Assembly: GCA_905182565.1 (NCBI GenBank)
Contig: CAJJCB010000017.1
Span: 1-64,000 of the forward strand
DNA length: 64,000 nt
From: Acidimicrobiaceae bacterium
Lineage (GTDB): Bacteria > Actinomycetota > Acidimicrobiia > Acidimicrobiales > Poriferisodalaceae
Direction of reading: 5' to 3'
Part shown: one piece after another, positions 35,830 to 39,384 of the stretch
How positions within the stretch are numbered: position 1 is the stretch's first letter
How the letters are laid out: each line of letters begins with the position of its first letter
Translations under genes and position numbers: made by a program
The notes under the pieces: model-generated
Told to the model about the DNA's origin: nothing
Seen by the model: only the letters and a program-made list of their open reading frames with translations
Database searches by the model: none

Positions 35830-36705
35830 ATGAACGAAGAGCGTAGAGTCTCATTTCGAAAATCACTTGAGAGTAATGGTGTCGTTTTCGCTCCACTTGC
35901 GTTAGATCCACTTGCTGCTTTGTTAGCTCAAAAAGCGGGTTTTCAGGCGTCCTACCTAAGCGGGGGCGCGTTGGGTTTCCAATATGCGGTCTCTGAAGCT
36001 CTGTTAACACTTACTGAAATTGTTGATGTTGCTCGCCGTATCACGGCGAGGTGCGATCTTCCGTTGATAGTCGATGGTGGAGTAGGATTCGGGGATCCGG
36101 TGCATGTACAACGAGCCGTATGGGAATTTGAATCGGCTGGAGCCGTAGCATTGGAGCTAGAGGACCAAGTTGCTCCGAAGCGTGTTCACCATCACGTTGG
36201 AGTCGAGCACCTTGTTGATACTGAATTAATGTGTGAGAAAATATCGGCTGCAGCAGAAGCTCGTTCGGATAAAAATCTTTTAATTATTGCTCGTACTGGT
36301 GCCAACACTCATGAAGGTCTCAATAGCGCTATCGAACGCTTAAATAGATACGTTGATTCTGGTGCTGACTTGGTGATGGCCTTTGGCGGAAATGACGACC
36401 TTGAAGCGATCAGTTCCTCGGTGCATGCTCCTTTGTCAACTATCGCAAGCATGAATCGGCAAACGTCAGATAGATGGCATGACGTTGGCTGTTCTTTGGT
36501 TATTGATGCGTTCACATCACAAGCGATCATGATCTCGGGACTTAAGAAATCCTACGAGGACTTTCGTAATGGTGAAGGTTCCGGAGTGACTGTCGATGGT
36601 GAGGCGTTACATCGTGAGTTAGTGGAACTTTGCGGACTGAATTCGTTGCTTGATTTAGAGACTCGCACCACAGAAAAACACAGTATTACAAAACGAACGG
36701 ATTGA
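35830..36705 (+). CDS. Isocitrate lyase / PEP mutase superfamily protein
   Basis: A 291-residue member of the phosphoenolpyruvate mutase/isocitrate lyase superfamily: YLSGGALGF, IVDGGVGFGDPVHVQRAV (metal-binding Asp), ALELEDQVAPKRVHHHVG and LLIIARTGANTHEG. The usual catalytic loop KxCGH reads KRVHH here, with Val in place of the Cys that isocitrate- and methylisocitrate-lyases use as acid. It is therefore more likely a decarboxylase or other variant than a standard lyase. ATG at 35830 with GCAGAG upstream. Next gene overlaps its stop. Confidence 0.82.
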   Translation: MNEERRVSFRKSLESNGVVFAPLALDPLAALLAQKAGFQASYLSGGALGFQYAVSEALLTLTEIVDVARRITARCDLPLIVDGGVGFGDPVHVQRAVWEFESAGAVALELEDQVAPKRVHHHVGVEHLVDTELMCEKISAAAEARSDKNLLIIARTGANTHEGLNSAIERLNRYVDSGADLVMAFGGNDDLEAISSSVHAPLSTIASMNRQTSDRWHDVGCSLVIDAFTSQAIMISGLKKSYEDFRNGEGSGVTVDGEALHRELVELCGLNSLLDLETRTTEKHSITKRTD

Positions 36706-37895
36706 TAGTGGACTCGTTACCCCTAGAAGATATTACTGTGTTAGACCTTTCAATCGCCCGAGCTGGGCCTACTGCCGTCCGTCAACTTGCTGATTGGGGA
36801 GCGAATGTTGTTCGAATCGAATCACCGGGCGGAGGGTTCGAAGCAGGCGGACATAGCTCTCCGGACTACTTAAATCTACACCGTAATAAACGATCAATCT
36901 GCATCGATTTAAAAAATGCAAACGGTAGAAATCTTTTCCATTCGATGGTATCTCAGTCTGATGTCGTCATCGAAAATATGCGGACGCCAGTGAAACATAA
37001 ACTAGGGTTCGACTATCAAACCCTGAAGGAAATTAACCCTAAAATAATTTTGGGATCGATTTCCGGATTTGGCCAAACGGGCCCTTATTCAGAGCGTGGT
37101 GGCGTGGATCAAATCGCTCAAGGTATGTCTGGAATGATGAAGGTAACTGGCTTGCCAGACCAGGGACCTGTTCGAGCTGGCGTAGCGATCAGCGATGTGA
37201 CTGCAGGCTTGCAGCTCGCAATCGGTATTTTGGTTGCCCTTCACGAACGCCAAACAACAGGTTTGGGTCGGTGGGTTCACACTTCCTTACTCGAATCGAT
37301 GATCGGGATGTTAGATTTTCAAGCGGCTCGGTGGACAGTGGATGGCGAGGATCCGCCTCAGTCTGGAAACGATCATCCGACTTTAGGACCCATGGGGATG
37401 TACCGCACTCTGGACGGACATATCAACTTGGCAGCCTCCGGCGGAAGGCTATGGGAAGCGTTCTGTCGAGAATTGGAATCGACTGAGTGGATAACGGATG
37501 TTAGATTCGCTTCAGTCAAAGTCAGAAAAGCGAATAGATCTGAACTGAATTCGCTCATTGAGGAACGATTAGTGATGGATACCTCAGCTAACTGGGTGAC
37601 GCGGTTGAACTCTGTGGGAGTTCCGTGTGGACCAGTAAATGGTGTAGCAGATGCCTTCGCTGACCCGCAGGTACAGCATCTTGAGATGGCAGCTGTTACG
37701 AAACATCCTGATGCTGGTGAGATACGGATTATTCGAAATGCAACCAATATTGATGGTGTGTCAAATGATATAAGGCGACCAAGTCCGAAGAAAGGTGAAC
37801 ACACGCATGAAATTTTGTCTTCCTTCGGGTTTGATGAACAGGGCATAGTCGAACTCTTCGAAAATGGGGGAGTGCGAAAAGCTGAGAGTGGTTAG
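36702..37895 (+). CDS. CaiB/BaiF family CoA transferase
   Basis: A single-unit class III CoA transferase, about 395 residues. DITVLDLSIARAGPTAVRQLADWGANVVRIESP is the N-terminal nucleotide-binding segment and GSISGFGQTGPYSERGGVD contains the catalytic Asp. GLGRWVHTSLLESMIGMLDF is in the middle. The longest frame begins at TTG 36702 and overlaps the lyase stop; GTG 36708 is an alternative. It moves CoA from a donor thioester to a free acid; with the hydroxyacid dehydrogenase and lyase it forms a three-gene catabolic unit of unknown substrate. Confidence 0.87.
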   Translation: MIVDSLPLEDITVLDLSIARAGPTAVRQLADWGANVVRIESPGGGFEAGGHSSPDYLNLHRNKRSICIDLKNANGRNLFHSMVSQSDVVIENMRTPVKHKLGFDYQTLKEINPKIILGSISGFGQTGPYSERGGVDQIAQGMSGMMKVTGLPDQGPVRAGVAISDVTAGLQLAIGILVALHERQTTGLGRWVHTSLLESMIGMLDFQAARWTVDGEDPPQSGNDHPTLGPMGMYRTLDGHINLAASGGRLWEAFCRELESTEWITDVRFASVKVRKANRSELNSLIEERLVMDTSANWVTRLNSVGVPCGPVNGVADAFADPQVQHLEMAAVTKHPDAGEIRIIRNATNIDGVSNDIRRPSPKKGEHTHEILSSFGFDEQGIVELFENGGVRKAESG

Positions 37896-38010
37896 TTGAG
37901 CTGATAATCTTTCTCTCAACTTGTCGGTATGTACTTGTCTGATTAATCTTTCTGTCTCTTTCGTTTAGCTAAAGCAAAGCCACCACTATAGAACCAGCCG
38001 CTCGTGTGAT

Positions 38011-38493
38011 TAATAAAATATTACACGAAAGCCAAGCTGCACAAGGGTTCCGGCGTAACCGTAAGTTTCTGACAAGGTGGCAGCTTCTACGAACACGTAT
38101 TCCGTTTGTCATGTGTCAAGCCATTGCTCATGTTGATCAATCCATGGGCGAAGATCTGGTGCAACCGGGGGAGTTTCTCGCAGTGATTCAGCCGCTTCAC
38201 TAGCCCATGTGCATCGGTACCCATTTGCGCAGCATCAGATGTTGTTCGGTGTGGTGCGCTTTTGAGCATGTCAATCGCTGCTTGTCGCTTACCGTTGACA
38301 AATAGCGAAGCAACAGCCCCAATATTGTCAACTGCTTCTTCGGCAACAAGCTTTTCACCCCAGAACTTCAGAAATGGCTTGGGTAAGTTGCCGACTGCAG
38401 AAGTTATACCTGGAACCTTTGCTGAGGTCTCAATATGAACGTAGAAGCGAGAGCCGCCACGCTTGATTGTTTGTACTACTGGGGGTGGTCATG
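38011..38493 (-). pseudogene. Phage-type PD-(D/E)XK (Cas4/RecB-like) nuclease, decayed
   Basis: Reading three minus-strand frames in turn gives a near-complete N-terminal half of a Cas4/RecB-like exonuclease of the kind common in actinobacterial phages. Frame 1 starts at ATG 38491-38493 (MTTP). Frame 2 continues VVQTIKRGGSRFYVHIETSA, KVPGITSAVGNLPKPFLKFW, AAIDMLKSAPHRTTSDAAQM and GTDAH. Frame 3 continues ASEAAESLRETPPVAPDLRP, WIDQHEQWLDT, then VFVEAATLSETYGYAGTL. The lesions are an extra C in a five-C run (plus-strand G run 38482-38486), a shift at the GGG near 38204-38206, and TGA at 38109-38111. The frame ends at TAA 38011-38013, before the DxK active site is reached. Confidence 0.8.
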
Positions 38494-38649
38494 CAACTTA
38501 TATCCCTAAACAGGCATGGCTTTGTTCAGCACCTCCAAAGAAATATTCTGTCCCACCCCAAAAGTAGTCTTCTGAGGACAATGACTTTACTTACCGACTC
38601 CCACCAACTGGAATCAAAACGCCGCAGTGTAGCCATGGCTGCACCGCAC

Positions 38650-38722
38650 TCACTTGTACACGTTGAAGTGCTACTAACTAGAGAAGAGGCGTTGAATGGT
38701 CTTCTTGCCATGCAGATGATTG
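38650..38722 (+). repeat. Diverged direct repeat R1, copy B
   Basis: Gapless partner of 1524-1596 with 62 of 73 identical positions. The minus-strand coding sense of copy A is destroyed here by two adjacent TAG codons, so copy B is the more decayed. Confidence 0.75.
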
Positions 38723-38848
38723 TGAATCGAAGATGTGAAGCGGCATAAACAAAAACCCTGTTTAATCTCAGAGCAGCAGGTTTACACTCACCGCCGTGAA
38801 AAAACGCTTTTGTTAGTTGTGGCTTTGTTGATTTACTCCTATCCATTT

Positions 38849-38901
38849 AATCGTTGAATACCGCCACTTCTGTTCGGGAACTTAGACTTATACTGTTCTC
38901 T
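38849..38901 (+). repeat. Diverged direct repeat R2, copy B
   Basis: Partner of 2310-2362. It ends 33 bp before the ATG of the SnoaL-like gene and contains TATACT at 38889-38894, a fair -10 box, so it may serve as that gene's promoter. Confidence 0.6.
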
Positions 38902-38934
38902 TTCCAGTTGCTAACATGGAGAGCGAGGTATGCC

Positions 38935-39384
38935 ATGGATCCTGAACTAGTGAAACTATTAGATGAACGTGAATGCGAACGATTGATATCGACTTATTGC
39001 CACTTGGTTGATTTCGGAAACGCTCCGGATATCGCGAACCTATTTACTCCCAATGGTGTTTGGCTCGGTTTGAATGTGAAAATGAATGGCCAAGAGGATA
39101 TCCGAGCACATTTCGAACACAGACAATCTGTTACGCGTCGGCAATCAAGACATTTATGTACAAACATCGTTATTGATATGGGAATCGATAAGGCTTCTGC
39201 TATTTGCTACCTGGTTAACTACCGGCATGATTCAAGTACCGGCGAAGCTGAATCGCCTGCGCCAGTTGGGTTACCTAAATATGTTGGCGAATATCATGAC
39301 ACGTTCGAAAAAACATCCGGAGGTTGGCGTTTCGCAGTCCGCCGTTTCGAAGTAGCTTTCTTACGACCTGCGACGGTTGATTGA
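38935..39384 (+). CDS. SnoaL-like (SnoaL_4) domain protein
   Basis: From ATG 38935, preceded by GAGCGAGG, the protein has 149 residues: an N-terminal ERECERLISTYCHLVDFGNAPDIANLFTPNGVW, then HFEHRQSVTRRQSRHLCTNI and a final GGWRFAVRRFEVAFLRP. This is the bile-acid-dehydratase/scytalone-dehydratase-like NTF2 fold used by ring-hydroxylating systems and isomerases. A longer frame from 38854 runs through repeat R2 and is unlikely. Substrate unknown. Confidence 0.8.
   Translation: MDPELVKLLDERECERLISTYCHLVDFGNAPDIANLFTPNGVWLGLNVKMNGQEDIRAHFEHRQSVTRRQSRHLCTNIVIDMGIDKASAICYLVNYRHDSSTGEAESPAPVGLPKYVGEYHDTFEKTSGGWRFAVRRFEVAFLRPATVD

Follow-up and report, generated by a model that had tools for sequence, protein, structure and literature searches.

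A mosaic stretch between two cellular genes

The window analyzed here is a stretch of 64,000 nucleotides from contig CAJJCB010000017.1 of an Acidimicrobiaceae bacterium, whose 2.6-Mb assembly (GCA_905182565.1) comprises 27 contigs. Within it, an intact CoA-transferase family III gene (36702–37895, plus strand) and a SnoaL-like gene (38854–39384, plus strand), both recognized with Pfam, flank a mosaic stretch of about 1 kb (37896–38906). The SnoaL-like gene probably starts at about 38936, because the homology with its counterpart in the sister genome and an ATG are found at that point. In plus-strand order, the mosaic holds a low-copy chromosomal repeat (B), a decayed phage exonuclease gene on the minus strand, and a second repeat (A) that carries a small gene.

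Collinearity with the sister genome (G038) holds to either side of the mosaic, at 85–89% nucleotide identity, and the two flanking gene products are 90% (CoA-transferase) and 87% (SnoaL-like) identical in amino acids. The spacer between these genes in the sister measures only 186 bp, and none of the components of the mosaic aligns to it above shuffled background; no exonuclease match was found anywhere in the sister genome. In five more distant members of the family (L017–L021), the CoA-transferase gene is closely followed by a 2-hydroxyacid dehydrogenase gene, which marks the gap as a variable spot. Ten nearby genes scanned with Pfam were cellular where they could be named, there is no tRNA gene within the window, and Rfam gave only two sub-threshold matches, which were taken as chance.

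The relic matches the N-terminal half of a phage exonuclease

An earlier note on this DNA had joined three successive minus-strand frames into one protein-like path, a pseudogene of the PD-(D/E)XK exonuclease type of actinobacterial phages. The frames and the quoted peptides are present, and the joined path matched the exonuclease family phrog_298 in PHROG at E = 6.2e-21 (profile positions 50–170 of 293), far beyond chance; the first frame alone gave E = 4e-13 and the second alone E = 3e-4. The translated search against phage proteins that the note had proposed matched phage exonucleases with both frames, so the reading does not fail for want of a match. With the relic as the query, tblastn matched 247 phage records, mainly from phages of Microbacterium, Arthrobacter, and Streptomyces, with a best E value of 6e-34, approximately 45% identity, and query coverage of at least 80% in 243 of them. 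These records carry exonuclease annotations and are set within phage replication neighborhoods. Searches of Pfam, NCBIfam, and PADLOC with the relic gave no match, no relative turned up when viral contigs were first scanned for exact peptides, and the exonuclease matches listed from a nucleotide search against phages were no longer than 139 bp.

The ends and lesions of the relic (38049–38492, minus strand) were mapped by frame-aware alignment against nine intact relatives. The N-terminal half of the exonuclease runs on the minus strand from 38492 to 38046 and accounts for the first ~150 of ~265–280 residues. Homology begins at the start codon at 38492 in five of the nine alignments, slightly upstream in one, and at 38476 in three; the ATG itself (38492–38490) is kept and opens the sequence MTTP, the same as in the phages. 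From there, the reading path passes through three frames by way of two frame changes and contains one TGA. The first change is placed at 38476 in six alignments, and the other three begin downstream of that position; it lies beside a run of five C at 38481–38485, one base off the 38482–38486 given in the note. The second is placed at 38159–38165 in eight alignments and at 38198 in one, best at or just past another C5 run (38167–38171) and not at the GGG (38204–38206) to which it had been assigned; the association of both changes with homopolymers stands for the first and has had to be moved for the second. The TGA was correctly called: it is in frame at 38111–38109, within an ungapped part of the alignment. 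The GTxxH motif is kept. Homology ends at approximately 38046–38049, after YGYAGT, with most relatives, at 38043 with one, and at 38019 with two of the nine.

The catalytic D...(D/E)xK and the C-terminal half were not found in the relic; in the alignment with the nine relatives, homology ends before them, as would be expected from the earlier proposal that the gene had died ahead of its catalytic Asp/Lys part. Because the metal-binding D and the (D/E)xK are missing and the frame is interrupted, the relic cannot encode a working nuclease. With its stop codon and lost catalytic half, it reads as a pseudogene fragment of a phrog_298 exonuclease, neither an intact gene nor a working member of the family.

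Relatives of the relic are phage exonucleases and not Cas4 proper

Residues 1 to ~150 of the relic align nearly without gaps, at approximately 45% identity, to gp26 of Arthrobacter phage Liebe, gp26 of Streptomyces phage Attoomi, and a "Cas4 family exonuclease" of Microbacterium phages. The motifs MTTP, TIKRGGSRFYV, GTDAH, and YGYAGT are common to the relic and the phrog_298 exonucleases of actinobacteriophages, whereas the relic has no second half with D...(D/E)xK, contains two frame changes and a TGA, and lies outside any phage gene neighborhood. In Liebe and Attoomi, the exonuclease gene has genes for a single-strand-binding protein, a nucleotide kinase, a RusA-like resolvase, and a primase as its neighbors. 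An alignment search of IMG/VR found 147 stretches that encode relatives, with identity of 51% or less among the best 80 of the 147; no close donor phage is known for the relic in the collections searched. Counted from the matched TIKR point, the open frames of all 76 complete viral relatives (those with a stop inside the contig) extend over 254–304 residues, and the D...(D/E)xK motif is present in 72. A PDB sequence search with an intact relative gave no match.

The earlier label "Cas4/RecB-like" is apt in its second part and loose in its first. CRISPR Cas4 (TIGR00372) belongs to the same PD-(D/E)XK superfamily as the relic's family, and Cas4 proteins have four conserved cysteines and an iron-sulfur cluster. 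From the TIKR point on, the 76 viral relatives have 0–2 cysteines, too few for the cluster of Cas4. The curated Cas4 model was passed by none of the intact relatives, which scored at most 22.6 bits (the weak match of G239, a genome of the same order) against a cut-off of 65, and the first segment of the relic did not match it. The family is that of the RecB/PD-(D/E)XK phage exonucleases, called "Cas4 family" by phage annotators, and not Cas4 proper.

A chromosomal repeat truncates the gene

Immediately beyond the end of the exonuclease homology lies repeat B (37992–38048, plus strand), which contains an inverted repeat (CTCGTGTG...ACACGA) and truncates the gene. A genome search, which may miss diverged copies, found it again at C24:177621 (85%), at ~119.4 kb of C15 (79%), and at C17:103085 (76%). 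Its predicted RNA fold is weak (z = −1.9 on the plus strand). The peptide LVQLGFRVIFY, which the earlier note had taken for the diverged end of the decayed nuclease, is a translation of repeat B and belongs to the chromosome. In C15 and C24, repeat B extends for ~40 bp more, up to a truncated repeat A; the copy in the window is cut short by the relic, and the copy at C17:103085 has no neighboring repeat A. The exonuclease gene is physically truncated at the junction with repeat B and not diverged at its end. This explanation of the apparent divergence is new here, as is the small conserved gene described below.

A conserved small gene adjoins the relic

On the other side, 56 bp separate the relic from the leader of repeat A (38549–38757, plus strand), which consists of this conserved leader (GTCCCACC...), a Shine-Dalgarno-like GAGG, and an intact gene for a 55-amino-acid protein (MTLLTDSHQLESKRRSVAM...; 38581–38748, plus strand). 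Copies of the repeat were found at C5:22493–22699 (84%), at C15:119515–119658 (85%), and in the sister genome on G038:C63 (82%). The gene itself is multicopy in the host genome (C5, C15, and C27, with decayed copies in C17 and C24) and is distantly related to genes of other genera in the family. Synonymous differences number 19 from the C5 copy and 23 from the G038 copy, against only 8 and 10 nonsynonymous ones, respectively. The resulting dN/dS of ~0.08 against the paralogues is a mark of purifying selection and argues that this frame is a real protein gene, now or until recently. A phage gene was considered and ruled out, as phage records yielded no match when E values as high as 5 were allowed; there was no match in Pfam, NCBIfam, or PADLOC either. 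The family was previously unnamed and unannotated, and it has more lasting use for annotation than the relic. Because the C5 and G038 copies of repeat A have common upstream sequence, the copy in the window looks like a later duplicate.

Elsewhere in the host genome, repeat A on C24 (L043, 1901–2950) is split by a stretch of ~870 bp with a 220-amino-acid open frame, which looks like a gene inserted into the repeat. The contig stretch shared with the C5 copy (L041, 490–951) encodes a pentapeptide-repeat-like protein in internally repetitive DNA.

Exonuclease relatives are rare in the order

A match to the relic's exonuclease was present in six of the 397 genomes of the order. One of these matches (G253) falls inside the span of a NuoG-like gene and was set aside as spurious. 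G239 has an intact, prophage-like copy that is 44% identical to the relic, on a contig with a serine integrase (Pfam) and amidase-, primase-, and polymerase-like open reading frames recognized by eye; G134 and G294 have intact, more distant relatives. A scan of 39 genomes of the family found no conserved non-phage locus with the exonuclease gene.

Origin of the relic

We consider it very probable that the 5′ half of a tailed-phage exonuclease gene ended up in the gap between the CoA-transferase gene and the SnoaL-like gene and then decayed. The incoming tailed-phage DNA would have carried this half of a RecB/PD-(D/E)XK exonuclease gene to a position that abuts repeat B on one side and nears the leader of the duplicated small gene on the other. 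After its arrival, the piece would have gained the two frame changes and the stop codon; it makes no active nuclease. From its family and its phage neighbors, the ancestral enzyme would have had a role in phage replication or recombination, processing DNA ends. Gain in the host lineage would be the simplest history, and loss from the sister is possible.

The lesions could in principle be those of a living gene broken by sequencing or assembly error, and the earlier note had rightly allowed for error at the frame changes and not at the stop. Both changes are at or near C5 runs and may therefore be artifacts, but the TGA lies in ungapped alignment and is no homopolymer slip, a chromosomal repeat stands in place of the second half, and the intact genes on either side are collinear with those of the sister. 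Since the TGA and the missing catalytic half would leave no working gene even if both shifts were errors, an error-broken living gene is barely credible. A domesticated cellular RecB-like gene that decayed at this locus would fit the intact, more distant relatives in G134 and G294; however, with so few matches in the order and the closest relatives being phages or prophage-like, we regard such an origin as highly improbable.

The position of the relic, flanked by B and A, raises a different idea, namely that it was carried as cargo by a small element, mobile or modular, with the two repeats as its bounds; the C15 and C24 copies would be deletion derivatives of this element. B does stand some 30–45 bp from a 5′-truncated A at these two sites. 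Against this, no B or nuclease was detected with the A of the C5 copy or of the sister orthologue, B occurs alone at C17:103085, and transposase, terminal repeats, and target duplication were looked for and none was seen. Moreover, the C15 and C24 copies of B extend past the junction, which means that B is interrupted by the nuclease and that the nuclease is not inside a B...A unit. Cargo of this kind is improbable, and just as improbable is a wider proposal in which B and A are parts of a low-copy system, mobile or cassette-like and so far undescribed, by which this genus moves small genes and fragments of phages into intergenic spacers, the relic being one piece so captured.

We therefore return to a lodged fragment of phage DNA. 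The relic is an ordinary phage pseudogene fragment, a genomic fossil, and implies that this actinobacterial host lineage was once exposed to phages like those known from Arthrobacter, Microbacterium, and Streptomyces. In the 1-kb mosaic, nucleotide search of phages revealed no second phage gene, and PHROG matches in the other frames were not convincing. Because of this, and because the relatives do not exceed 51% identity, we only infer that a phage was the immediate donor; of the earlier "prophage or phage-derived" alternative, the second part is borne out by exonuclease homology, and a resident prophage at this locus is unproven. In "Ca. Actinomarinales," one prophage has been reported, and prophages were called rare there (PMC7771536).

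Two further fragments were seen. In G037, which belongs to another genus of the same family as the host genome, a piece of 29 amino acids near a contig end (L016, G037:C113, 125–217) is 62% identical to the relic, so that genus, too, may have been exposed to a similar type of phage. The host genome itself has a second exonuclease of the same family on contig C25, which, at only 23–24% identity to the relic, points to a separate acquisition. It is also truncated, but in contrast to the relic, it keeps DLKTGK and has lost its C terminus instead. There (L005, G000:C25, 1–3176), a carbonic anhydrase gene lies between a frameshifted serine integrase gene and the truncated exonuclease gene, the latter two being the remains of another phage integration.
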